From Vreelandella sedimenti (GTDB lineage Bacteria > Pseudomonadota > Gammaproteobacteria > Pseudomonadales > Halomonadaceae): 64,000 nt of DNA. Under the pieces are notes generated by a model. The model worked only from the letters and a program-made list of their open reading frames with translations. It searched no databases and was not told where the DNA came from. The DNA lies in NCBI RefSeq assembly GCF_013416325.1, contig NZ_JACCGK010000009.1, positions 142,463 through 206,462 on the forward strand, read 5' to 3'. This document shows, piece after piece, positions 50,870-64,000 of the stretch. The position numbers were made by a program, and so were the translations under genes. The first letter of the stretch is position 1; each line of letters starts with the position of its first letter.

Positions 50870-52036
50870 ATGAATCTTCACGAGTATCAAGGTAAACAGC
50901 TGTTTGCCGACTATGGTCTACCAGTGTCTAAAGGCTTTGCAGTCGACACGCCCGAAGAAGCGGAAGAGGCTTGCAAAAAAATCGGTGGTGACATGTGGGT
51001 GGTTAAAGCCCAGGTTCACGCCGGTGGCCGTGGTAAAGCGGGTGGCGTTAAGCTGATTAAAGACCCGGCTGAAGCCAAAGCATTTGCTGAGCAGTGGCTG
51101 GGTAAAAATCTGGTAACCTTCCAGACTGACGAAAAAGGTCAGCCGGTTGCCAAGATTTTGGTTGAGACCTGTACTGACATCGCCGATGAGCTGTATCTCG
51201 GTGCCGTGGTTGACCGTACTACCCGTCGTGTGGTCTTTATGGCCTCTACCGAAGGTGGTGTTGAGATCGAGACGGTTGCAGAAGAGACGCCGGAAAAGAT
51301 TCTCAAAGCCGAAATCGATCCGCTGGTCGGCGCACAGCCGTACCAAGCGCGTGAACTAGCCTTTGCGCTGGGCCTAAAGGGCGACCAGATCAAGCAGTTC
51401 ACCAAGATTTTCCTGGGTCTGTCTCAGTTGTTCCACGACAAAGACCTGGCGCTGTTGGAAATTAACCCGCTGGTCGTCACTGAAGAGGGTAATCTGCACT
51501 GCCTCGACGCCAAACTGGGTCTGGATAGCAATGCCCTATACCGTCACCCTGATCTGCAGGCCATGCGTGACCCTTCGCAAGAAGATCAGCGTGAAGCCGA
51601 TGCGGCGAAGTGGGAACTTAACTATGTCGCGCTTGATGGCAACATCGGCTGCATGGTTAATGGCGCAGGTTTGGCCATGGGCACCATGGACATCGTCAAC
51701 CTGAGCGGCGGCAAGCCCGCTAACTTCTTGGACGTTGGCGGTGGTGCCACCAAGGAGCGCGTGGCAGAAGCGTTCAAAATCATCCTCTCTGACGACAATG
51801 TTAAAGCCGTTCTGGTTAACATTTTCGGCGGTATCGTACGTTGCGACATGATTGCTGAAGGCATTATCGGTGCCGTTGAGCAAGTGGGTGTCAACGTACC
51901 GGTTGTCGTACGTCTGGAAGGTAACAACGCCGAGCTGGGTGCTGAAAAACTAGCATCGAGCGGTTTGAACATCATCGCGGCTACCAGTCTGACCGACGCG
52001 GCTCAGCAGGTCGTTAAAGCGGCGGAGGGCAAGTAA
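50870..52036 (+). CDS. sucC: Succinyl-CoA synthetase (ADP-forming) beta subunit
   Basis: ATP-grasp subunit, 388 residues. The start [22 protein letters not shown] is typical. The ATP-grasp elements [18 protein letters not shown] and [12 protein letters not shown] are present, and [14 protein letters not shown] and [15 protein letters not shown] lie in the CoA/phosphate domain. It makes succinate and ATP from succinyl-CoA with SucD. Stop and sucD start share one base (TAATG). The start has no clear ribosome site. Confidence 0.98.
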
Positions 52037-52908
52037 TGAGCATCCTGATCGATAAGAACACCAAGGTCATCTGCCAGGGCTTTACCGGTGGCCAAGGCAC
52101 GTTCCACTCCGAGCAGGCGATTGCCTACGGTACGCAAATGGTCGGTGGTGTTACGCCGGGTAAAGGCGGCCAAGAGCACCTCGGTCTGCCCGTTTTCAAT
52201 ACCGTGAAAGAAGCGGTAGCGAAAACCGGTGCGGAAGCCAGCGTTATCTACGTACCTGCGCCGTTCTGTAAAGATTCGATCCTTGAAGCGGCGAACGCCG
52301 GTATCAAGCTGATTGTGTGCATCACCGAAGGCATCGCCACGCTGGATATGCTCGAAGCGAAAGTGAAGTGCGACGAGCTGGGCGTACGTCTGATTGGCCC
52401 CAACTGCCCAGGTGTTATCACCCCAGGCGAATGCAAAATCGGCATCATGCCGGGCCACATTCACCAGCCGGGCCGTGTCGGTATCGTATCGCGCTCTGGT
52501 ACATTGACCTATGAAGCCGTTAAGCAGACCACTGATCACGGTTTTGGTCAGTCTACCTGTGTAGGCATTGGCGGCGACCCGATTCCAGGCTCTAACTTCA
52601 TCGACATCCTTGAGATGTTCGAGAAAGACCCGAAAACCGAAGCTATCGTCATGATCGGCGAAATCGGTGGCACGGCTGAAGAAGAAGCGGCGGCTTATAT
52701 CAAAGCCAACGTTTCCAAGCCCGTGGTTTCCTACATTGCCGGTGTCACTGCACCTCCTGGTAAGCGTATGGGCCACGCGGGCGCGATCATCTCTGGCGGT
52801 AAAGGCACCGCTGACGAGAAGTTTGCTGCACTAGAAGACGCCGGTGTTAAAACCGTGCGCTCTTTGGCTGAAATCGGTGATGCGCTGAAAGAAGTGACTG
52901 GCTGGTAA
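52036..52908 (+). CDS. sucD: Succinyl-CoA synthetase alpha subunit
   Basis: 290 residues, CoA-binding and phosphohistidine subunit. The N-terminus is [20 protein letters not shown]. The phosphorylated histidine is in [33 protein letters not shown] is the conserved partner segment. Translationally coupled to sucC. A strong hairpin follows. Confidence 0.98.
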
Positions 52909-52933
52909 GCCATTGACGTTTAGCTGCACGCTA

Positions 52934-52959
52934 TAAGGGCGCCCCTCGGGGCGCCCTTA
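52934..52959 (+). terminator. Terminator of sucCD
   Basis: Perfect 12-bp stem TAAGGGCGCCCC / GGGGCGCCCTTA with a TC loop, followed by CTGTTT. It closes the TCA-cycle block. Confidence 0.7.
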
Positions 52960-52998
52960 CTGTTTCTGGTTTCTGCCCTTGTGCCATTACATCTGCGA

Positions 52999-54021
52999 TC
53001 ACGCCGCAGAACGACGCAGTATGCGATAGCTATACAGTACAAAGAACGGCGCGCCTGCCGCCAAATATAGATGATAGCTGACCAACCGCCACACCAGAAC
53101 CGCTGCTGCGGCCTGCTCGCGCTCCATCAACGGCAACAACAGGCTTCCTACGCCCACCTCCGCAGCGCCCGCGCCGCCGGGCAGAAAACTAAATTGGCTG
53201 GCTGCCATCGCCAGCATCTGGGTCAAGAATGTCCACATCCAGTCCGCATGGCCACCTACTCCCAGTACTGCCAAATAGAGCAAGCTGTAGCGCATGAGCC
53301 AGTGCGCCGTCGTCAGCGCTAGCATGGCGATCAGTATACTGCGCGGGAGCTTAAGGGTGACCTTTAATGCATACCGACAGCGCAAGAGGCGCCGTACGAG
53401 CCAGCGTCGCTGATATCGGCTTGGCCATGGCGTGTTCACGCCGGGTGAGCGCAATAGGCTGGGTAGATAACGCATTACGACAATCACCAGCGCTGTCATG
53501 AACGCTAATCCTACCAGTGCCCACTGTACGAGCGATTGATGTGGCCATTGGGTGTCGCTTAGCATTGAAAAGAGCACCAGACCGCTCAGCATGGCCAGGA
53601 AGAAAAGTAAGTCGCAGCCTTGATCAATCAGGAACACCGCCGCGCCCTTGGCAGGCGGAAAACCGCGCCGTGCAAGCAACAACAACAGGGTTGCTGGGCC
53701 ACCGCTGCCGCCTGGGGTGGCGCACAGGGCAAACTTGGACGCCAGTTCGATACCCAGGGCGCCGCGCTGACCAAGCCTGCCCGCACGGCCCCCCAGCATC
53801 AAACGTAGCCTTGTTGCATTCAGGTTCCAGCACAGAAAGGCCATCACCAGCATCAATAACAGCAGCCCAAGTGGGAAGTGTTTGACGCGCTGCAGTGCTT
53901 CAGCGCCACCCAGCCAAGCGGTGAGCACTAACGGTGCAATCAGCGCTAAGGCAATCATCACACCATGGATGGGTCGCCACTTCAGTAGCTGACGGCGACT
54001 AGTGGTGTTGGTGGAGTGCAT
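52999..54021 (-). CDS. Flippase-like membrane protein (LPG-synthase TM region family)
   Basis: 340 residues with about eight hydrophobic segments, of the UPF0104/AglD-MprF N-terminal type. Visible landmarks are SKFALCATPGGSGGPATLLLLLARRGFPPAKGAA (the conserved Gly-rich loop) and FLPGGAGAAEVGVGSLLLPL. Members act as glycolipid flippases or unknown envelope proteins. The start at 54021 (MHSTNTTSRRQLLKW) is chosen. The longer frame to 54081 lies inside the upstream glycosyltransferase. The two genes overlap by 23 bases and probably act together in making or moving a glycolipid. Confidence 0.82.
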   Translation of the reverse strand: MHSTNTTSRRQLLKWRPIHGVMIALALIAPLVLTAWLGGAEALQRVKHFPLGLLLLMLVMAFLCWNLNATRLRLMLGGRAGRLGQRGALGIELASKFALCATPGGSGGPATLLLLLARRGFPPAKGAAVFLIDQGCDLLFFLAMLSGLVLFSMLSDTQWPHQSLVQWALVGLAFMTALVIVVMRYLPSLLRSPGVNTPWPSRYQRRWLVRRLLRCRYALKVTLKLPRSILIAMLALTTAHWLMRYSLLYLAVLGVGGHADWMWTFLTQMLAMAASQFSFLPGGAGAAEVGVGSLLLPLMEREQAAAAVLVWRLVSYHLYLAAGAPFFVLYSYRILRRSAA

Positions 54022-55117
54022 ACGGTTGGCTGCCGTGGCAAAGCTGCTGATAGTGCTCCAGCAGGGAATGCATGACACCATCCCAGTTGAAATGGCGCTC
54101 TACATGGCGGCGCGCATAGCGCCCACTGGCGGCGACATCATTACTGAACAGTGCCACACACGCCTCCGCCATGGCAACGGGGTCGAGCGGTTTGCATAAA
54201 ATACCCGCCCCCAGCAGCACGTTTTCTGCCAGCGCCCCTGCGTTCGCTGCTATTACTGGAATGCCGCTTGCCATCGCTTCCTGAGCAATTAAGCCGAAGG
54301 TTTCGCGGGTGCCCGCATGTAACAGAGCATCGCTACTGGCCAGTGCCTTCGCGACCTCGTGGGCGCCACAGCAGCGATCCACGATGGTGACATTACTAGG
54401 TACGTGATGTGGCATGCCGGGGCCCATCAGCAGTAAATGGTAATCGCTACCTAGCTGACGCATCGTCGCCAGTAGCACATCTATATTTTTCTCGCGGGAA
54501 TTGCGGCCCACAAAGATCAGCAGCTTTTTATCGCTGGGTATGCCCATGGTCTGTCGGAAGGCCGGGTCACACTGCTGGGGATTAAATTGCGCCAAATCGA
54601 CGCCCAATGGCTGAACCCGAACGTTATCGACGCCCCAGTCATTCAGTCGATTCGCCATCGCGTTGCAGGGTGCCAGCACGCTATCAAATTGGCTATAAAG
54701 CGTCGTAACATAGCGGGTTAAGCGTTTTTCAACGTAGCACCCAAAGCGATCACCCATTAAGCGAGGAAGATCAGAGTGATAAAAGCCCACCACAGGCACG
54801 CCGAGACGTTGTCCCGCATCGAGCGCAGCCCAGGCCGTTACATAGGGGTCGCCAGCCTCTATCAGATCGGGCTTCAGATCAATCAGTACATCACGCCACG
54901 GAGAGCCGCGTAGCGGAAAGCGATAGCCTTGCCCCAAAGGAAGGTGTAACGCCGGTAGCGTGTGGTGATCGCCAAGACTATCCCGCTCCGCCCCCGGCAC
55001 CAGCAGACTGGTACGCAGCTGTGGAATACGCGAGAAAACACGGTGTTTGGCCTGCAAATAGGTACGTACACCGCCGCTGGCGGGTGCATGGAACATCGTC
55101 ACATCGGCAATGTGCAA
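53999..55117 (-). CDS. Glycosyltransferase family 4 protein
   Basis: 372-residue GT-B transferase. The N-terminus MHIADVTMFHAPASGGVRTYLQAK is typical of GT4, with the first-domain Gly-rich loop. The C-terminal domain has IFVGRNSREKNIDVLLATM and the donor-binding signature GTRETFGLIAQEAMASGIPVI (E-x7-E). It begins with TTG at 55117, backed by GGAGG five bases upstream. A TTG further up at 55135 lacks a site. It probably glycosylates a lipid or envelope acceptor and is coupled to the flippase-like gene downstream. Confidence 0.87.
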   Translation of the reverse strand: MHIADVTMFHAPASGGVRTYLQAKHRVFSRIPQLRTSLLVPGAERDSLGDHHTLPALHLPLGQGYRFPLRGSPWRDVLIDLKPDLIEAGDPYVTAWAALDAGQRLGVPVVGFYHSDLPRLMGDRFGCYVEKRLTRYVTTLYSQFDSVLAPCNAMANRLNDWGVDNVRVQPLGVDLAQFNPQQCDPAFRQTMGIPSDKKLLIFVGRNSREKNIDVLLATMRQLGSDYHLLLMGPGMPHHVPSNVTIVDRCCGAHEVAKALASSDALLHAGTRETFGLIAQEAMASGIPVIAANAGALAENVLLGAGILCKPLDPVAMAEACVALFSNDVAASGRYARRHVERHFNWDGVMHSLLEHYQQLCHGSQPYALHQHH

Positions 55118-55275
55118 GCTAACCTCCAACCACAAAGATTGTCATCGTTTCACCATAAAGGAGAAATAAGTCAGTTCAGCGACAGTTGAGCCAAGGCTGT
55201 TATTTCCTGCTAATCCCTCCCTTCCAGCCCTTTCGCTGATCACAAGCTAGTGAGTCGTGTTCGTCTGTTTATTGG

Positions 55276-55319
55276 TTGACTCTTGGTCAAGCTGGACTAG
55301 TATGACATCCATATGGATG
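55276..55319 (+). promoter_or_regulatory. Promoter and palindromic operator of the RHH-depolymerase operon
   Basis: TTGACT (55276-55281), 16-base spacer, TAGTAT (55298-55303), then the perfect 14-bp palindrome CATCCATATGGATG at 55306-55319. The palindrome covers the transcription start, a classic repressor position. The first gene is a ribbon-helix-helix regulator. Confidence 0.62.
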
Positions 55320-55415
55320 GTGTATGGATTCCAAAAAGATGCCTTCTGGATGTTGGGTAGTTGTTTTAGCCCCATCGAAAGGTGTCCGGTGACCAAGCGC
55401 AACGAGGAACGACAC

Positions 55416-55832
55416 ATGAGCGTGCACGAACTGCGCCGCAAGAGCGGCGACTCCAGCGAGAAGATCACCATTAACCTGGGGGTCGTTGACCTGGGGCAGA
55501 TCGACCTGCTGGTTCAGGAAGGCTTCTATTCCAACCGAACTGATCTGATACGCACCGCTATCCGCAATCAGTTGGTGACCCATGCCGAGGTCGTTAGAGA
55601 GACCGTTACCCGCAAGTCGTTTGTGCTCGGGCTTGAGCACTACAGTCGCACGGATCTGGAGGCCCTACAGTTGGCAGGGGAGAAATTGCAGATTCAGGTT
55701 CTGGGCATGGCCAGCATTGCCGATGACGTTACGCCGGAGTTAGCTCTTGCCACCATCGAGTCGGTGGTCGTACTGGGCGCACTACACGCCAGCAAAGCGG
55801 TCAAGGCCGCCCTGGCAGATCGAATCCACTGA
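55416..55832 (+). CDS. Ribbon-helix-helix (CopG-like) regulator
   Basis: 138 residues. The N-terminal strand and helix-turn-helix of the Arc/CopG fold is seen in ITINLGVVDLGQIDLLVQEG followed by FYSNRTDLIRTAIRNQL (about residues 17-53). A longer C-terminal domain of unknown type follows (KSFVLGLEHYSRTDLEAL). The frame extends to 55257, but GAGGAAC at 55404 supports the ATG at 55416. It is upstream of the PHB-depolymerase-like gene and probably controls both through the palindrome at 55306. Confidence 0.78.
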   Translation: MSVHELRRKSGDSSEKITINLGVVDLGQIDLLVQEGFYSNRTDLIRTAIRNQLVTHAEVVRETVTRKSFVLGLEHYSRTDLEALQLAGEKLQIQVLGMASIADDVTPELALATIESVVVLGALHASKAVKAALADRIH

Positions 55833-55855
55833 ATCACTCAATAGGGACATTGATC

Positions 55856-56977
55856 ATGATCGACACCGCTATGTCGAAGCGAATGGAAGAAGCAACGCGA
55901 CTCACCTGTGCGGGGAAACTGCATGAGGCCATGGCCCTCCTCCAGGGTGGCGCGCCCGAAGAGTGGCGTGAGAAAACGCCGGATAACGCTTACCGAGGTG
56001 GTAATACCTTCGATGGAACCTGGCAGGTTAGCGATAAAAAAGACACGGTAACTAAGCCAGCGTCAGAGGCCCTATCTCCTGATATCGGTCACACTCGTCA
56101 AACGAACACGGGCACCTTCACGACCGGTAGTTTCAGCAACCGCGTAGGCAGGCGTGATTACAAGCTGTATATCCCCAGCGGCTATCACGGACAAGCGCTG
56201 CCGCTAGTGGTTATGCTGCATGGCTGCACGCAGAATCCGGATGACTTCGCTGCTGGAACCGAGATGAACCGGCTGGCCGAAGAGCAGCTGTGTTGTGTGC
56301 TCTATCCGGCCCAGCCGATGACCGCCAACAACTCCAAGTGCTGGAACTGGTTCAAGGCCGAAGACCAGCAGCGTGAGGGCGGTGAACCAGAGATTTTGGC
56401 GGGCATGACTCGCCAGATCATTGACAACTATGAGCTCGATACCACCCGTGTCTATGTGGCAGGGCTCTCGGCAGGCGCCGCCATGGCGACCACTCTGGCG
56501 ATGACCTACCCCGATCTCTTTGCGGCGGTAGGCGTGCACTCTGGGCTGCCCCACGGCGTGGCCAAGAGTCTACCCGAGGCCCTGGGGACCATGCAGGGAG
56601 GCACAGGGCCCCTGGGTGGCGGTAACAAAACAAAAGGAGCTGCGTGGGCGTCGGATGTGCCAGCCATTATCTTTCATGGCGACCGCGACACCACCGTACA
56701 TCCCAGCAACGCGGATCGCGTGGCTGCCCAGTACAGCACATCGCGTCAAGCAGGGGCGACGGTAGAGAAGGGGAAGGTAGCCAATGGTCACGGCTACACC
56801 TGTACCACTTACCACAATGCCAAGGGCGAGCCGCACCTGGAGCTGTGGCAGGTACACGGGGCGGGCCACGCCTGGTCGGGAGGCAGCACTAAAGGAAGCT
56901 ATACCGACCCGAAAGGCCCCGATGCCACCAAGGAAATGCTGCGTTTCTTCTTACAACACCGTCAAGCTGTTGCGTAG
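55856..56977 (+). CDS. PHB depolymerase family esterase
   Basis: 373 residues of the LpqC/type-1 catalytic-domain poly(3-hydroxybutyrate) depolymerase family. The oxyanion region is VVMLHGCTQNPDDFAAGT. The nucleophile is in YVAGLSAGAAMATT. The acid is in IIFHGDRDTTVHPSN and the histidine in VHGAGHAWSGGS. No signal peptide is seen. The first about 85 residues are a charged, Thr/Asn-rich extension, so it may act inside the cell or on short oligomers. The ATG at 55856 is chosen over the TTG at 55850. Confidence 0.87.
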   Translation: MIDTAMSKRMEEATRLTCAGKLHEAMALLQGGAPEEWREKTPDNAYRGGNTFDGTWQVSDKKDTVTKPASEALSPDIGHTRQTNTGTFTTGSFSNRVGRRDYKLYIPSGYHGQALPLVVMLHGCTQNPDDFAAGTEMNRLAEEQLCCVLYPAQPMTANNSKCWNWFKAEDQQREGGEPEILAGMTRQIIDNYELDTTRVYVAGLSAGAAMATTLAMTYPDLFAAVGVHSGLPHGVAKSLPEALGTMQGGTGPLGGGNKTKGAAWASDVPAIIFHGDRDTTVHPSNADRVAAQYSTSRQAGATVEKGKVANGHGYTCTTYHNAKGEPHLELWQVHGAGHAWSGGSTKGSYTDPKGPDATKEMLRFFLQHRQAVA

Positions 56978-57164
56978 CGGTAGTAAACGAGAGCATACGG
57001 AGTGTTTTGCTCGTAAAGAAGCTATACCGCGAGGCCTTGCCATCACTATTGCTAACGCAAGTTAATACATTATTCGTGTTATTAATAGTTGTTATATGCA
57101 TAGAGCTAAAGTTTATATTTTATATGCCGACAAACCTACCTCTCTTACTAATTAGGTAGTTTCC

Positions 57165-58790
57165 ATGCTTTCACGATTCAAGATCGGTACACGGCTCGCA
57201 CTGGCTTTTGGCTTGGTCTCGCTATTTCTTTTGGGTACTTTAATAGCGGGAATTATGGGCATCACCTTCACCAAAGATACTGCCCAAAAAACCTTGGACA
57301 CGGAGGTAGCACTCGCAAGCAATGCCGCAGAAATTCAGCGTCTGGCATTGCAAGCGCGGCGTTTTGAAAAAGATATCTTCATCAATATCGACAGTAGCGA
57401 TCGGGTAGCGGCTTACCAGCAAAGTTGGGCGGCGACCATCGAAGAAATACAGGCCGCCTTCCAGGCGGGTAGCCAAATTGCCGATAAAGATAGCCTCAAT
57501 GCTTTGTACCAACAGGCAGGAAGCGCCCTCCAGGAGTATGAAGAGGGTTTTCTGTCAGTCTATCGCAAAATTGAATTAGGCAGTATTACCGAAACCTCTC
57601 AAGCCAATCTGGCTTTCGGTGAGCATAAAGAGAGTATCTACCAGCTTGAGGAGTTGGCTGATGAAATTAGCCTAGTGGCTGTTGAAGGGGTCAAGACGGC
57701 TAATGAGGCGATAAATGCCGAGTATCGTTTGGCTATTTGGCAGCTTTGTATTTTCGCGGGGGGGGCGTTGTTGATGGCGTTGGCGCTGGCAATTGCTATT
57801 ACGCGTAGCATTGTATTGCCTTTGCGGAGAGCGGTTGAGGTTGCAAAGCGCGTTGCGGAAGGAGATTTGCGACACGATATCGTAACCACAGGACGTGATG
57901 AAACGGCTCAGTTATTAACCTCCATGGCCGAAATGAGTAAAGCGCTCACTACTCTGGTCGCATCACTACGTGACTCCAGCGAGAATGTCTTGAACGGAGC
58001 CAATGAGATTGCCCAAGGTGGGCAGGAGCTCGCCGCTCGCACTGAGCAGCAGGCAGCTGCCTTGCAGGAAACGGCTTCTAGTATGGAGGAGATGACGGCA
58101 ACGGTTCGTCAGAATAGCGATTCAACCAAAGAGGCTGATGCGCTGGCCCATAATGCTTCACAACAGATGCAAAGTGGCGGTCAAGAAGTCTCCCGTAGCG
58201 TAGAGTTAATGCGCGAAGTAACAGCCGCATCGCTAAGCATGGATAAGATCGTTGAGGCCATCGATACGATTGCATTTCAAACCAATATCCTAGCTTTAAA
58301 CGCCTCCGTTGAAGCGGCGCGTGCTGGTGATAAAGGCCGTGGGTTTGCAGTGGTCGCTACAGAAGTTCGTGCGCTCGCAAGCCGCAGTGCCGCTTCAGCA
58401 GGTGAAATACGCACCATGCTCGACGATACGCGTAGCAAAATAAAGCTATGTTCTGACCAAGCGGAGCGAGGCGCTGCGACCATTGGTGAGACGGAAGCAG
58501 TGATCCAGCGCTTAGCTATGTTGATGGTCGAGGTATCCTCTGCCACTCGGGAGCAAAGTAGTGGTATTGAGCAGATCAATACTGCTATTACTGAAATGGA
58601 TTCTACCACTCAGCAAAACAGCACACTGGTTCAGCAATCGACTAATGCAGCATTTTCCTTGGAAGATCAGGCTGGGCGCCTGCGCGAGCTGGTAGCTGCC
58701 TTTCAAATAGATGAAGCTGTCGTGAAAAAGGCATCAGTGTACAATCCGGCAAAGGGCTTACCTTTGGCTTCAAGACAAACGGAGTTCTAA
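57165..58790 (+). CDS. Methyl-accepting chemotaxis protein
   Basis: 541-residue chemoreceptor. TM1 is at about residues 10-30 (LALAFGLVSLFLLGTLIAGI). The periplasmic helical bundle spans about 35-190. TM2 is LCIFAGGALLMALALAIAI. A HAMP domain follows (about 215-270, RSIVLPLRRAVEVAKRVAEGDL), then the signalling domain with the hairpin tip IVEAIDTIAFQTNILALNA and the C-terminal methylation helices. The ligand-binding region is of the four-helix-bundle type (DUF-like MCP N-domain). No chemotaxis genes flank it. No clear ribosome site precedes the start, so the ATG is chosen as the only one that keeps TM1. Confidence 0.92.
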   Translation: MLSRFKIGTRLALAFGLVSLFLLGTLIAGIMGITFTKDTAQKTLDTEVALASNAAEIQRLALQARRFEKDIFINIDSSDRVAAYQQSWAATIEEIQAAFQAGSQIADKDSLNALYQQAGSALQEYEEGFLSVYRKIELGSITETSQANLAFGEHKESIYQLEELADEISLVAVEGVKTANEAINAEYRLAIWQLCIFAGGALLMALALAIAITRSIVLPLRRAVEVAKRVAEGDLRHDIVTTGRDETAQLLTSMAEMSKALTTLVASLRDSSENVLNGANEIAQGGQELAARTEQQAAALQETASSMEEMTATVRQNSDSTKEADALAHNASQQMQSGGQEVSRSVELMREVTAASLSMDKIVEAIDTIAFQTNILALNASVEAARAGDKGRGFAVVATEVRALASRSAASAGEIRTMLDDTRSKIKLCSDQAERGAATIGETEAVIQRLAMLMVEVSSATREQSSGIEQINTAITEMDSTTQQNSTLVQQSTNAAFSLEDQAGRLRELVAAFQIDEAVVKKASVYNPAKGLPLASRQTEF

Positions 58791-58799
58791 AAAGCTGAT

Positions 58800-58835
58800 A
58801 ACAGCAGCGGCGCCTTAAGAGTGCCGCTGCTGTTT
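58800..58835 (+). terminator. Terminator of the chemoreceptor gene
   Basis: 12-bp stem AACAGCAGCGGC / GCCGCTGCTGTT with an 11-base loop, then TTA. Confidence 0.75.
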
Positions 58836-58850
58836 ATGGTCTACTAGAGT

Positions 58851-59028
58851 TTATTCATTAGGCTGTGCCATCAGGAAGCGAATCTCTCTGCGAACTTCGT
58901 TGAACACTACGCGCAGCAGACCGGCCAATTTTTAACGCTATTCGTCTTCGGTCCGGATAACCCCTCTGCGTCATTAATTACCACTCTGCTGCGATCGCTG
59001 AGAATAAATGCTGTTGGCATAAACGCCT
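58851..59028 (-). pseudogene. Decayed copy of the rnb 3' end
   Basis: Read on the minus strand, it translates in two frames to pieces matching the C-terminus of the RNase II encoded at 63597. One frame gives AF(M)P..FILSDRSRVVINDAEG, against the intact AFVPAPLMHSDRSKVVIDDKEG. After a frameshift, RVVFNEVRREIRFLMAQP corresponds to RIVLTEAREETRSLVAKP. Internal stops TAG and TAA interrupt the second piece. Its length equals the matching 178 bp of the intact gene. Identity is about 70 percent by eye over the first 64 columns. Homology ends at 59028 at AAACGCC. Confidence 0.7.
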
Positions 59029-59070
59029 AGGCTCCTGAAAGTGTTCGATGAGCTGCAGGTGAAGTAAATC

Positions 59071-59181
59071 CTCATAAATCGAGCGTTCTTCGATTTGAGA
59101 CTGTCATTAGGCTGTTGGCAAAATTCATGTCATGCATATAGATGAAAAAGCAGGAGTATCTAAACAGGTACTCCTTTTTTT
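59071..59181 (+). ncRNA. Possible small RNA: hairpin with strong terminator
   Basis: A small stem AAATCGA / TCGATTT (59076-59082 and 59090-59096) is followed after about 55 bases by the terminator-like stem AGGAGTA / TACTCCT (59152-59158 and 59169-59175) and a run of seven T. No coding region precedes it within 120 bases. An RNA gene is possible, but it could equally be a relic terminator. Confidence 0.3.
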
Positions 59182-59691
59182 GCTTTATTGGATGAAAAAA
59201 ATAGTACTGCAGACTAGATTTTTAACCCGCCCCTATCCTTGACAGTAAAAGCTGTGTCTCTTATTTTGATAATGTAACTTTTGGTAATTTTTATGTTTCA
59301 CGGTGTAATTGAAAGAGTTGTGGCTTTTTATTAGGTCAATTATCAAAAGGATAATTTTAATTATAATGCGTAAATTATTTAATTCGCTTTAAAAGCTAAT
59401 GTTTGAGCTTGGTGTCGTTACTTTGAGAATCTTGCTTTTTTACTTATCAAAACAGAGTTAAAAGATTCGTTGGGCCTGCCTTAAGTTATATCGAATTTGA
59501 TAGTAGCAATAATTTATTTATTTAAAGAATTTTTGTTTTACCTGCTGGATACGGCCTACATAAGAAAAACTCACTATTTTTTAGCCAGTAATGTGCAGTG
59601 CAAGTAGGTATGAAAAAATAAAGATTAAATAAGCTTGAAAATAAGAACATAGGGAAACTTGGTTAATTGACAATAATGGCGAGGTAGTATT
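59182..59691. other. AT-rich intergenic region (510 bp)
   Basis: Strikingly A+T-rich compared with the rest of the window, especially 59270-59600. No open frame of note, no tRNA, and no repeat copy. It precedes the nucleotide-sugar cassette. TTGACA at about 59667 lacks room for a useful -10 before the cassette start, so the promoter is probably further upstream and was not identified. Confidence 0.6.
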
Positions 59692-60792
59692 TTGAAAATC
59701 TTGGTCATAGGGAATATGGGGTATGTTGGCTCCGTTGTGGTGCGAGAGTTAGCCTTACGTCACCCATCTGCCACTCTTCATGGGTACGACGCTGCCTACT
59801 TCGCACACTGCTTAACGGGCGCCGAACTACTTCCTGAGCGTTATCTCGCTCAGCAGTTTATGGGGGATGTACGAGATATTCCGACTGACTTCTTTAAAGG
59901 TTATACGGCGGTGGTTCAGCTGGCGGCGATTTCCAATGACCCCATGGGAGACCGCTTTGCCGCAGTGACCGCTGAGGTTAATCAGCAGGCGACGGTTGAT
60001 ATTGCCAAGGCAGCGGCTCAGGCGGGGGTAGAGAACTTCGTTTTTGCCTCAAGCTGCAGCATTTATGGCGTCGCTTTAGGGGCTCCGCGCAGTGAGTTAG
60101 ATCCTGTGGCTCCCGTTACCGCCTATGCCTGCTCGAAAATAGCAGCTGAAGAAGCTTTAGCCAGCATTGAGGGCGACATGGTGATTACCTGTTTACGCTT
60201 TGCGACTGCCTGCGGGATGTCAGAGCGTTTACGGCTGGATCTGGTGCTCAATGATTTCGTTGCCTGTGCCTTAAGTCAGCAACATATTACCGTACTTAGC
60301 GATGGGTCTCCCTGGCGACCCTTGATCGACGTCTCAGATATGGCCAGAGCTATCGACTGGGCAGTACAGCGCAAGCCTGAAAACGGCGGGCGCATACTCA
60401 ATATCAATACCGGATCGAACGAACGTAATCATCAAGTACGAGATTTAGCCACTGCAGTGGCCAAGGCCGTTCCCGGCACCACGCTGAGTATCAATACCCA
60501 AGCCCCGGCGGACAGCCGTTCCTACCAAGTGGATTTCAACCTGTTTGCCAAATTGGCCCCCGAACACCAACCGCAAACGACGCTTCTGGATTCGATCATG
60601 GGGTTGATCAATGGGCTCACAAGTATGGAATTTTCTGATGCCCAGTTCCGAGCCTCACGCTATATGCGTTTGCATGCTCTACAGGGGCATATCACTGCAG
60701 GACGCCTATCTGAAAACCTGCGCTGGCGAATTTGTGATGCCAACACCCCGGGTACTTTGCCTGCTGCTACCCACGTAAACCTTGAGGCCTGA
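59692..60792 (+). CDS. NAD-dependent epimerase/dehydratase family protein
   Basis: Extended SDR of 366 residues acting on nucleotide sugars. The dinucleotide motif is IGNMGYVGSVVVREL. The catalytic triad segments are FASSCSIYG and TAYACSKIAAE (Tyr-xxx-Lys). The third domain includes RPLIDVSDMARAI. It begins with TTG at 59692, with GAGG seven bases before. The C-terminal 70 residues after about 295 are longer than usual. It is not a recognisable CDP-glucose 4,6-dehydratase (RfbG). It may be a 3- or 4-epimerase or reductase of a CDP- or dTDP-sugar. Function is inferred from the fold and neighbours. Confidence 0.85.
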   Translation: MKILVIGNMGYVGSVVVRELALRHPSATLHGYDAAYFAHCLTGAELLPERYLAQQFMGDVRDIPTDFFKGYTAVVQLAAISNDPMGDRFAAVTAEVNQQATVDIAKAAAQAGVENFVFASSCSIYGVALGAPRSELDPVAPVTAYACSKIAAEEALASIEGDMVITCLRFATACGMSERLRLDLVLNDFVACALSQQHITVLSDGSPWRPLIDVSDMARAIDWAVQRKPENGGRILNINTGSNERNHQVRDLATAVAKAVPGTTLSINTQAPADSRSYQVDFNLFAKLAPEHQPQTTLLDSIMGLINGLTSMEFSDAQFRASRYMRLHALQGHITAGRLSENLRWRICDANTPGTLPAATHVNLEA

Positions 60793-60807
60793 AACGGAGG
60801 CTAGACT

Positions 60808-61584
60808 ATGAAAGTCGCAATTTTCGCGGGAGGGTTTGGAACCCGCTTAAGTGAAGAAACAGCGATTCGCCCCAAGCCCATGGTGGAAGTGGGTGGTCGG
60901 CCGATCCTTTGGCATATCATGAAGATGTACGCCCACCATGGCTTAAAAGAATTTATTGTCCTGGGTGGCTATAAGGTGGAGCACATTCGCGACTATTTTC
61001 TCAATTATCGCGGCAATCGAACCGATTACACTATTGACCTGAAGACAGGTAACGTTGACTGGCTTCAGAGCGTCAATGATGACTGGAAAATCACCGTGTT
61101 GGATACAGGCGCTGATGCCATGACAGGAGGGCGTCTCAAAAAGGCCATGCCTCTGCTGGCAGATGAACCTTTCTGTTTGACTTATGGCGATGGGTTGAGT
61201 GATCTGAATATTAATGCCTTGATCGATTCACATCTGGCTTCGAAAAATTGGTGCACCCTGACGGCAGTAACGCAGCCGGGCCGCTACGGTGCGCTACGTT
61301 TGAAAGAGGGCAATAGCCAGGTAGAAGGCTTTCGTGAAAAGGGCGAAATAGATGGAGGGCTGATCAATGGCGGCTTCTTCGTCTGTAATCCAGAAGTGTT
61401 CGAGACGATCGACGATAGCCAGACCGTATGGGAAAACGAGCCCATGAACCGGATGATTGAGATGGGGAAATTGGGCTACTTCCATCATAACGGTTACTGG
61501 CAAAGCATGGATACGCTGAGAGACAGAATGGTGCTTGAGACCGCCTGGGCAGAAGGTGCCCCCTGGAAGCTCTGGAAGGAATGA
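60808..61584 (+). CDS. rfbF: Glucose-1-phosphate cytidylyltransferase
   Basis: 258 residues. It makes CDP-glucose from CTP and glucose 1-phosphate, the usual entry to CDP-dideoxyhexoses. The nucleotide-binding start is MKVAIFAGGFGTRLSEET. The family signatures RPKPMVEVGGRPILWHIMKMY, HHGLKEFIVLGGYK and LTYGDGLSDLNI are all present. GGAGG precedes the ATG. It follows the epimerase by 15 bases and overlaps nothing. A CDP-glucose 4,6-dehydratase, normally the next gene (rfbG), is missing from the window. Confidence 0.93.
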   Translation: MKVAIFAGGFGTRLSEETAIRPKPMVEVGGRPILWHIMKMYAHHGLKEFIVLGGYKVEHIRDYFLNYRGNRTDYTIDLKTGNVDWLQSVNDDWKITVLDTGADAMTGGRLKKAMPLLADEPFCLTYGDGLSDLNINALIDSHLASKNWCTLTAVTQPGRYGALRLKEGNSQVEGFREKGEIDGGLINGGFFVCNPEVFETIDDSQTVWENEPMNRMIEMGKLGYFHHNGYWQSMDTLRDRMVLETAWAEGAPWKLWKE

Positions 61585-61591
61585 ACCATCA

Positions 61592-62938
61592 ATGATTATT
61601 GTTGATACAGCGCTTGCCCAACGAGAGGCGCAGGGTAATCCCATTCGAGTGGGGATGGTCGGGGCGGGGTTCCAAGCGGGCGGTATCGGTCTGCAGATTA
61701 TGACCGCTACGCCTGGGATGCGCCTTTGTGCTATTGCCAATCGTCATTTGGATGCAGCGATCAAGGTCTTCCAGCAAACCGGGATTGAGCCAGTCGGCTG
61801 TGAGACTCAGCAGGAACTTGAAGCGGCGATCGCGGCTGGGCGACCGGCAGTCACCGAGGATGCCGTGGCACTGGCGCGCGCAGAGGGATTGGATGCAATT
61901 ATTGAAGTCACTGGCTCGTTGGAGTTCGCGGCGCATGCCGTCCTGGCGGCGCTGGAAAGTGGTAAAGACGTCATTCAAATGAACGCGGAACTCGACGGTA
62001 CGATCGGCCCCATCTTGAAAGTGAAAGCCGATGCGGCAGGGGTTGTCTACAGCTTTGCCGATGGCGACCAGCCTGGTGTGCAGATGAATCTCTATCGGTT
62101 TGTCGCCGGGCTAGGTATTAAGCCGGTGCTGTGTGGCAACATTAAAGGCTTGCATGACCCATATCGTAACCCTGCTACCCAGGAAAGTTTTGCCAAACGC
62201 TGGGGGCAAAAGCCGGCAATGGTGGCCTCTTTTGCTGATGGCACCAAGATATCGTTCGAACAGGCGATCGTCGCCAATGGCACCGGCATGCAAGTGGCTC
62301 AGCGCGGTATGCTTGGCCCTGATTTCTCTGGTGGTGTAGCCGGTGGGCCCTTAGTGCCCATCGAGCAGACGGTATCGGCGTTTGAGCCCTACCTGAACCC
62401 GAAGGGGCCGGGGCTGGTTGATTATGTTGTTGGGGCACGGCCGGGGCCGGGCGTATTTGTGCTGGGGACGACCGACAGCCCCCGTCAGCGCCACTATCTC
62501 GAACTCTACAAGCTGGGCGAGGGGCCTTATTACTGTTTCACAACACCTTACCATCTGTGCCATTTCGAAGTACCCACGTCCGTTGCCCGCGCCGTGCTGT
62601 TCCGTGATCCCGTGTTATCCCCCATAGAGGGCCCCAGGGTGGGCGTCATCGCCATAGCCAAAAAAGCTTTGCGGGAGGGCGATACAATTGAAGAATTCGG
62701 TGGCTTCGAAGTCTATGGGGTAGCGGAAAACATCGAGGTGATACGCAGGGATCGGCTGTTACCTATCGGGCTAGCGCTGGGCTGCCAGGTGGTGGGCCAT
62801 GTGGAAAAGGATGCAGCGCTGACCTTTGATGATGTGCGTATACCGTCCAGGCGGCTGATCGACCGCCTATATTCTGAACAGGAAGCCATGTTTGCCCTGG
62901 AATTGACGTCTGGTGTCGCTACTACGTTCACGGAGTAA
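61592..62938 (+). CDS. NAD(P)-binding oxidoreductase with C-terminal SAF domain
   Basis: 448 residues of the COG4091-like type, described as homoserine-dehydrogenase-like with a SAF domain. The N-terminal Rossmann part is IRVGMVGAGFQAGGIGLQIM with EVTGSLEFAAHAVLAALESGKDVIQMNAELDGTIG. The C-terminal about 75 residues (from ALREGDTIEEFGGFEVYGV to DVRIPSRRLIDRL) have the sialic-acid-synthase-like SAF pattern. An in-frame stretch extends to 61535 inside rfbF and is ignored. The ATG at 61592 follows AAGGA by 11 bases. Its chemistry is not known to me. The neighbours suggest action on a CDP-sugar or branched-chain intermediate. Confidence 0.72.
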   Translation: MIIVDTALAQREAQGNPIRVGMVGAGFQAGGIGLQIMTATPGMRLCAIANRHLDAAIKVFQQTGIEPVGCETQQELEAAIAAGRPAVTEDAVALARAEGLDAIIEVTGSLEFAAHAVLAALESGKDVIQMNAELDGTIGPILKVKADAAGVVYSFADGDQPGVQMNLYRFVAGLGIKPVLCGNIKGLHDPYRNPATQESFAKRWGQKPAMVASFADGTKISFEQAIVANGTGMQVAQRGMLGPDFSGGVAGGPLVPIEQTVSAFEPYLNPKGPGLVDYVVGARPGPGVFVLGTTDSPRQRHYLELYKLGEGPYYCFTTPYHLCHFEVPTSVARAVLFRDPVLSPIEGPRVGVIAIAKKALREGDTIEEFGGFEVYGVAENIEVIRRDRLLPIGLALGCQVVGHVEKDAALTFDDVRIPSRRLIDRLYSEQEAMFALELTSGVATTFTE

Positions 62939-62941
62939 GAG

Positions 62942-63490
62942 ATGCATTTTCATCAAACGAACCTCAAGGATGCCCGCCTGATAGAGCTTGAGCCACGTGG
63001 TGATGAACGCGGTTTTTTTGCTCGTACCATGTGCCGTGCAGAGTTTGAGCGCCATGGCCTGCTGAGTGACTTCGTGCAGCAGAATACCTCCTTTTCTGCT
63101 CAACGAGGCACCTTAAGGGGGTTGCATTATCAGCGGCAGCCCCATGCCGAGGCCAAACTGGTGCGCTGCATTCGAGGCGCGATTGTCGATGTCATCGTGG
63201 ATATCCGTAAAGATTCGGAAACCTACTTGCACCATCAGTTATTTGAATTAACCGATGCGAACCGGCACCAGCTGTATGTACCGCCAGGCTTTGCGCACTC
63301 CTTTCAGACGCTGACCGACGATGTTGAAGTCAGCTATCTGGTCTCGGCTGCCTATCATCCCGAGGCTGAAAGTGGTTTGCGCTATAACGATGAACGTCTC
63401 GCGATTGAGTGGCCGATTCCCCCCACGGTGGTGTCTGAAAAAGACGCTAGCTGGCCCTTAATCAGTGAGCGAAACGAAGCGCTTTTTTGA
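62942..63490 (+). CDS. rfbC: dTDP-4-dehydrorhamnose 3,5-epimerase family protein
   Basis: 182-residue cupin epimerase. The active-site segment GTLRGLHYQRQP contains the catalytic histidine. RGAIVDVIVDIRKDS and LYVPPGFAHSFQTL are also typical. It acts on 4-keto nucleotide sugars at C3 and C5. In this cassette it could serve a CDP- rather than a dTDP-sugar, as in known RfbC homologues of CDP pathways. GGAG precedes the ATG. The gene is followed by the terminator shared with rnb. Confidence 0.9.
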   Translation: MHFHQTNLKDARLIELEPRGDERGFFARTMCRAEFERHGLLSDFVQQNTSFSAQRGTLRGLHYQRQPHAEAKLVRCIRGAIVDVIVDIRKDSETYLHHQLFELTDANRHQLYVPPGFAHSFQTLTDDVEVSYLVSAAYHPEAESGLRYNDERLAIEWPIPPTVVSEKDASWPLISERNEALF

Positions 63491-63541
63491 CTACTTGCGA
63501 ATAGCTAGTAACGAATCCAGATATCAACCAAACACACTAAA

Positions 63542-63569
63542 AAAGGGGCAGCGTGATCGCTGCCCCTTT
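63542..63569. terminator. Bidirectional terminator between rfbC and rnb
   Basis: Perfect 12-bp stem AAAGGGGCAGCG / CGCTGCCCCTTT with a TGAT loop. On the minus strand it is followed by a T-run (TTTTTT), fitting rnb. On the plus strand it closes the nucleotide-sugar cassette. Confidence 0.85.
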
Positions 63570-63596
63570 GAATAATGCCTAGCTATTACCTACCCG

Positions 63597-64000
63597 TCAA
63601 TTGGCAGGCTTTGCCACTAGCGAGCGAGTCTCTTCGCGCGCTTCAGTGAGCACTATACGCAGCGGATCGCCAAGTTTGTACCGCTCTTCACCCTCGATCT
63701 GGATACGCCCCTCTTTGTCGTCAATGACCACTTTGCTGCGGTCACTGTGCATCAAGGGCGCGGGCACAAACGCCGTTGCGCCGTTTTCCACCAGACGAAC
63801 ACGCATGCCGCCACGGTTGATGGCCATGATTTCGGCCTCAAACGTATCCTGGTTCTGCGCAGCGGGCGTCAGGTAACGCACGTAGAGCCAGTCTTTCACG
63901 TCGCGCTCGGCCATACGGTTCAGGCGGCGGCGTTCCGTCAGTTGCTCGGTGAGCTGCTGGGTCGCTTCGGCGGGGGCCTGTTCGCCTTTCAACACGCGTT
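63597..64000 (-). CDS. rnb: Exoribonuclease II (partial, C-terminal part)
   Basis: The reading frame stays open to the right edge, so only the last about 134 residues are seen. The segment AERDVKDWLYVRYL and the S1-domain core EIMAINRGGMRVRLVENGATAFVPAP match E. coli RNase II (Rnb) closely. The ending ETRSLVAKPAN is likewise Rnb-like rather than RNase R. It degrades mRNA from the 3' end. A degraded copy of its last 178 bases lies at 58851-59028. The start is outside the window. Confidence 0.9.
   Translation of the reverse strand, partial: RVLKGEQAPAEATQQLTEQLTERRRLNRMAERDVKDWLYVRYLTPAAQNQDTFEAEIMAINRGGMRVRLVENGATAFVPAPLMHSDRSKVVIDDKEGRIQIEGEERYKLGDPLRIVLTEAREETRSLVAKPAN

Follow-up and report, generated by a model that had tools for sequence, protein, structure and literature searches.

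Introduction

When an integrative island replaces the 3' end of its target gene, the gene stays intact with the end brought by the element, and the displaced end comes to lie at the far side of the insert. Displacement of gene ends has also been proposed for rhs genes, the C-terminal part of which is displaced, and for T6SS effector genes of Vibrio cholerae, which are displaced stepwise (PMC5361080, with Jackson et al. 2009 among its references); the mechanism proposed there is akin to homology-facilitated illegitimate recombination. In this process (PMC3240628), the incoming DNA is homologous to the recipient at one end and is joined illegitimately at the other.

Here, we analysed a locus of Vreelandella sedimenti in which a four-gene sugar-nucleotide cassette lies between the intact rnb gene, which encodes the exoribonuclease RNase II, and a decayed copy of the rnb 3' end. 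The window, i.e. the whole stretch of DNA analysed, is 64,000 nucleotides long, and all coordinates refer to it. We conclude that the fragment is likely the displaced native 3' end of rnb and that the cassette is likely to have entered by recombination in the rnb end.

The locus has the traits of gene-end displacement, i.e. a stranded rnb end on the same strand at the far side of the insert, a native flank that is kept, and an intact gene with an insert-linked end. As in the 3'-end-replacing islands, rnb is intact with a cassette-linked end and the presumed displaced end lies at the far side; unlike in these islands, neither an integrase (among the nine window proteins scanned, the four cassette proteins being sugar-nucleotide enzymes) nor a tRNA (in 52000-64000) was detected, and the repeat at rnb consists of hundreds of bases of coding DNA. 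An integrase-borne island in a gene 3' end was rejected as an explanation, since the insert contains no integrase gene. As in the rhs and T6SS effector loci (PMC5361080), a conserved upstream anchor is followed by a new module and the old 3' part is stranded downstream; the differences are that the anchor is a housekeeping exoribonuclease, the protein of which is hardly changed, that the payload is an unrelated and convergent sugar-nucleotide cassette, and that the stranded end is a decaying pseudogene. One homologous and one illegitimate end, as in homology-facilitated illegitimate recombination (PMC3240628), are also proposed for the rnb cassette; as a difference, the rnb case is read from an old scar, the original junction of which has decayed and is unreadable to the base. 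In the literature searched, we found no paper joining Halomonas, genomic island and ribonuclease II, and none joining Halomonas, glucose-1-phosphate cytidylyltransferase and horizontal.

Results

In the window, a gene for a methyl-accepting chemotaxis protein (MCP; 57165..58790, + strand) is followed by a hairpin terminator (58800..58834; inverted repeat I10), the decayed rnb 3'-end copy (58860..59027, - strand), a conserved cassette leader with a promoter-like TTGACA/TATTTT pair (59190..59300, + strand), which is the left edge of the shared cassette DNA, and the cassette. The four cassette genes, all on the + strand, encode an NAD-dependent epimerase/dehydratase (59692..60792; PF01370), a glucose-1-phosphate cytidylyltransferase (60808..61584; TIGR02623 above cut-off), a DRL-type oxidoreductase (61601..62938; PF21135; PDB 3upy, 3upl) and an RmlC-like sugar-nucleotide epimerase, RfbC (62942..63490; profile matches). 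The 3' part of intact rnb (63597..64000, - strand) follows, and the gene continues past the window; it encodes a full RNase II of 646 aa that scores above the NCBIfam cut-off for exoribonuclease II. Apart from these genes, the window list of open reading frames shows no long frame free of overlap in the interval from the fragment to rnb. Thus, the cassette lies between the two rnb sequences, which are on the same strand and 4.57 kb apart, in agreement with the preliminary description, in which this distance was given as 4.6 kb.

The preliminary description had also recognized the fragment as a degenerate copy of the end of rnb, carrying a frameshift and stops and diverging by about 30 percent, and this was borne out. 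In a local alignment, the fragment matched 63606-63774 of rnb with 124 matches, 43 mismatches and three gaps, i.e. 74% identity when gaps are disregarded (124 of 167 aligned bases). The alignment score was 75, while the maximum among 2000 dinucleotide shuffles was 22 and the best control tile (220-base tiles with a step of 110, both strands, starts <58000) reached 26; moreover, the reverse complement of the fragment contains stops in all three frames. The shuffle and tile controls rule out that the match is due to chance or that the fragment aligns better to another gene family. Similarly, the orthologous pieces found at the same place in four other genomes (below) rule out that it is an assembly artefact.

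The length of 178 bp originally given for the fragment is probably too short. A probable further remnant of rnb lies at 59042..59059 on the - strand, where 15 of 18 bases match the sequence 347-364 nt from the rnb stop. This match is weak on its own and is supported by the orthologous piece in G077, in which 34 of 36 bases match positions 332-367 of the rnb of G001. When window positions 59021-59175 were compared with the whole of rnb, the best score was 19.5, and the 95th percentile and maximum among shuffles were 18.0 and 21.5, respectively (n=300). The match in G077 shows that the original piece comprised at least about 367 nt and later lost internal parts, 59042-59059 probably lying beyond such a deletion. 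Near 59060-59190, where the rnb remnant gives way to the leader, the joint is decayed.

We then compared the locus across the genus in a set of 82 genomes including the window's own, all of which contain an rnb-like gene, the one in G051 being only a distant relative with 30% identity. The rnb locus was compared in 77 loci, i.e. the window and 76 others, the set of 82 minus G021, G041, G051, G070 and G074; the rnb alignment leaves out G031, in the assembly of which rnb is split, and the flanks are short at several loci (e.g. L017, L039, L087, L088 and L094). The cassette oxidoreductase gene was detected in 15 of the 82 genomes (E <= 1e-100). The cassette adjoins rnb in 11 of the 77 loci (the window, G075, G077, G045, G066, G056, G062, G003, G081, G039 and G020) and is located elsewhere in four genomes. 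Family-wide, the oxidoreductase gene is present in 42 of 275 genomes; the 15 cassette loci examined among the 27 outside the genus all have the same four-gene order, and rnb was not found within their 1.5 kb flanks. In the genus, the four species with the cassette away from rnb (L078-L081) have the sequence directly after rfbC in common, so that the cassette occupies two or more chromosomal sites within the genus.

The leader pattern, AATAGTACT ... TTGACAGTAAAA ... TATTTT, is conserved upstream of the cassette amid fast-changing DNA and may represent an operator-promoter. It is present in the window, G077, G045, G066, G062 and G003, and by alignment in G075, and occurs once in the window's own genome; it was not found in the loci of G081, G039 and G020 or in unlinked cassettes. 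A glycosyltransferase gene precedes the epimerase gene in G062, G003 and G020 and in the four unlinked cassettes (L078-L081). No remnant of it was found in the window lineage at 59300-59690, a stretch that is AT-rich, and alignments between the window and G062 or G003, in which the glycosyltransferase gene follows the leader, span the leader only.

In all 11 linked loci, intact rnb meets RfbC across a GGGGCAGCG...CGCTGCCCC terminator (63542..63569 in the window; inverted repeat I18), which is present in none of the 66 unlinked loci; the pattern was also checked among the best 80 entries of a longer list. The terminator is likewise absent after rfbC in the four unlinked cassettes and, therefore, belongs to the junction between cassette and rnb. 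The end of rnb itself is also cassette-linked: the last residue is D or N with a TGA stop in eight of the 11 linked loci, the other three have a TAADS-TAG tail, and both types of end are missing from the 66 unlinked loci, two of which end in D with TAA.

How far this linkage reaches into rnb was examined in 16 close genomes, i.e. the five carriers with a fragment and 11 non-carriers, using as exact fraction the share of five-genome groups, among all that can be drawn, with a result at least as good as that of the carriers. In the last 100 nt of rnb, carrier-carrier identity exceeds carrier-noncarrier identity by 8.1 points (exact fraction 0.0018) and in the next 100 nt by 2.9 points (0.0076), while the fraction is never below 0.13 in rnb windows further upstream. 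Thus, the excess similarity among the five carriers does not extend beyond the final ~200 nt of rnb. With G075 left out, the remaining four carriers gave fractions of 0.010 and 0.015 for the last and the next 100 nt, respectively; when each close pair was represented by a single genome, the three sets tried, of four such sets, gave 0.016-0.052 and 0.063-0.096, and these weaker fractions indicate that few independent lineages carry the linkage signal. A similarity breakpoint inside the anchor gene was seen not only in these five carriers (~200 nt) but also in G003 (Vreelandella andesensis; ~120 nt). Compared with its nearest relative, G042, the rnb of G003 is 95-96.5% identical in the stretch 120-400 nt from the stop and 78-82% identical in the last 120 nt, in which it is 85-90% identical to the carriers G056 and G062. 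The gain toward G056 and G062 over G042 is 2-5 bases per 60 and, therefore, less distinct than the drop in identity to G042. The TAADS-TAG tail of G003 is the one found in G056 and G062, and the cassettes of the three group together (support 100). G003 apparently underwent a second switch near the end of rnb, ~120 nt ahead of the stop and without a stranded piece. Sliding identity along rnb revealed no donor; the rnb ends of the five carriers have no raised identity to those of the distant carriers G081, G039 and G020.

To compare the history of the cassette with that of the genomes, we used a core tree of gyrB, mutS and rpoB, in which G045 was placed by gyrB only (mutS and rpoB were not found at the cut-off) and G053 without rpoB. 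In this tree, the five carriers are scattered and form no clade: the window and G075 group with the non-carrier G028 (support 100), G066 with G010 and G059 (100), and G045 with G067 and G077 (97). The cassette tree unites the five in a single group (support 100), within which G045 and G066 are sisters. These two are 88% identical in gyrB, 92-96% in the MCP and cassette genes, 89% in the intervening non-coding DNA and 94% in the remaining rnb. Because the block is more similar between them than gyrB and the trees are discordant, we suggest that the cassette block probably moved within the carrier group.

Alternatively, the block could be ancestral to the whole group and have been lost many times, partly by recombination between the rnb end and the fragment, which would make this a swap locus. 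The scatter of the carriers in the core tree is what such a history would give, and for most carrier pairs other than G045 and G066 cassette divergence is near core divergence. However, losses would be needed in several interleaved lineages, the GGGGCAGCG terminator is kept at none of the unlinked loci, and the high similarity of the G045 and G066 blocks, together with their sister relationship in the cassette tree only, fits transfer. We therefore consider an ancestral block rather unlikely. It would, moreover, leave the origin of the fragment unexplained; it concerns the later history of the block and is compatible with the fragment being a displaced native end.

A direct search with the fragment in the 82 genomes matched five of them: the window's own genome, G075, at the edge of its fragment, and G077, G072 and G008, in which the match is inside intact rnb. 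This search was too blunt, and loci were therefore compared by synteny. By this comparison, the window, G075, G077, G045 and G066 contain a fragment, located after the MCP gene and its terminator and ahead of the cassette leader; it is thus present in all five of the 77 loci in which the cassette lies between the MCP gene and rnb, and no convincing rnb piece was found in the other 72, including beside the other variable contents of the sucD-rnb interval. Accordingly, five of the ten rnb-linked cassettes with a visible far edge have an rnb piece there, always directly after the MCP gene and terminator. In G056, G062, G003, G081, G039 and G020, other genes adjoin and there is no convincing piece, the far edge being cut by a contig end in G056. 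The five pieces differ from each other by deletions. Thus, the comparison of the region 3' of rnb that the preliminary description had proposed shows rnb pieces flanking five cassettes of one lineage only.

The MCP gene adjoins rnb in eight cassette-free loci, and in the seven of these that were aligned the MCP gene is followed by a hairpin terminator and then at once by intact rnb. The fragment occupies the place of intact rnb behind this terminator and, therefore, most likely represents the original end of rnb, which stayed where it was. The flanks and the cassette-linked tail and terminator support the earlier proposal that the cassette was inserted beside rnb and that the fragment marks one of its edges; the accompanying suggestion of a foreign rnb end is probably incorrect. 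The main point against the fragment being native is its bases at six diagnostic sites that separate carrier from non-carrier rnb ends. At these sites, the window fragment has three carrier-type bases, no native base and one that is neither, while the carrier/native/neither counts are 2/2/1 in G075, 1/1/2 in G077, 1/1/2 in G045 and 1/2/1 in G066. With this mixture, native ancestry rests on position and flank.

If the fragment were foreign, the cassette would have arrived with a piece of donor rnb on its far side, leaving the resident gene unchanged. The carrier-type bases at three of the four scorable sites of the window fragment agree with this, as does the fact that the cassette adjoins rnb in carriers elsewhere. 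In those carriers, however, rnb is on the RfbC side of the cassette and not on the leader side; moreover, the MCP flank of native junctions is on the fragment, and the cassette-type tail and terminator are on intact rnb. A foreign origin of the fragment is, in our view, quite improbable.

If rnb or its end had been duplicated in tandem at this site long ago, with the cassette landing between the copies later, the geometry would be the same, and both the former length of the fragment of at least ~367 nt and the carrier-type bases in the window, which would fit a copy of the present gene, can be cited for it. We scanned the region downstream of rnb blindly for a second rnb end using 21 coding control probes per locus. 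The best control was beaten in six of the 77 loci: by margins of 52, 14 and 11 in the window, G075 and G077, respectively, in which the matches are the fragments, and by 6 in G034 (L082), 2 in G020 and 1 in G011. The match in G034 has many gaps and lies 8 kb from rnb and was rejected as an rnb piece, those in G020 and G011 are marginal, and all three are taken for chance. The pieces in G045 and G066 did not beat the controls and were recognized by synteny and alignment. There is thus no convincing second rnb end beside rnb in the 66 cassette-free loci; this and the cassette linkage of the rnb tail and terminator make a duplication decidedly unlikely. Finally, a functional RNA or 3' UTR element, as might be proposed from the presence of the fragment in the MCP 3' flank in five genomes, is extremely unlikely given that the lineages differ by deletions, that the MCP-cassette intergenic region is 63-89% alike between carriers and that 58700-63700 contains no Rfam match at gathering thresholds.

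The gene adjoining rnb varies across the 77 loci, which confirms the variability downstream of rnb that had been anticipated. The most frequent neighbour is a PHB depolymerase gene (25 loci), followed by a glycosyltransferase gene of the GT/LPG_synthase_TM pair (14), sucD itself (12), the cassette (11), an MCP gene (eight) and others (seven, one of them a contig end only). Across the genus, the sucD-rnb interval (window 52908-63597) differs by whole modules, including the LPG_synthase_TM/GT pair, an RHH regulator with the PHB depolymerase, the MCP gene and other genes. The distance between sucD and rnb ranges from 97 bp to 10.7 kb where both were seen; in G015, there is no sucD within the 14 kb examined. 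The earlier proposal that the rnb end is a hot spot for surface-sugar genes is weakly supported: the content of the interval turns over, but cassettes are a minority (11 of 77) and the rnb pieces mark one lineage.

Discussion

The reading that we prefer, a displaced native rnb end, would involve the following steps. In the ancestor, the MCP gene and rnb would have been tail to tail. Incoming DNA from a relative with the cassette beside its own rnb would have recombined homologously inside rnb at one end, replacing the resident tail by the donor tail, and would have been joined without homology at the cassette-side end, inside the resident rnb, ~367 nt or more upstream of the stop codon. RNase II would stay whole as the product of a hybrid gene, and the resident rnb end would be stranded between the MCP gene and the cassette and decay unconstrained. 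Later, the block may have been shared among related species by ordinary homologous recombination in its flanks. Alternatively, a single crossover in rnb with a circular molecule that contained the cassette and some of rnb would have the same result. A one-sided insertion is the simplest account; it explains why intact rnb is a hybrid, why its tail and terminator go with the cassette, and how an end with a native flank came to be stranded. The fragment is decayed and keeps its position and native flank, intact rnb has a cassette-linked tail and terminator, and the cassette and core trees are discordant; from these observations, we infer the recombination steps, whether homology-facilitated illegitimate recombination or a circle crossover, as well as the donor and the direction of transfer.

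More tentatively, and with less confidence than we have in the displacement itself, the 3' end of rnb may be a recurrent, integrase-free docking site. A portable unit made up of the cassette, the convergent terminator and the final 60-200 nt of rnb could move among Vreelandella species, with the end of the housekeeping gene serving as homology arm and the old end being stranded in some cases.

The locus preserves a scar from which one can read how gene cassettes can get into bacterial chromosomes when neither integrases nor transposases are involved, and a single junction can be traced in five genomes at different stages of decay. The linked terminator and rnb tail provide a simple marker with which to trace the cassette. 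Moreover, the locus suggests that a housekeeping gene may retain a hybrid end as a side effect of the transfer of cargo.
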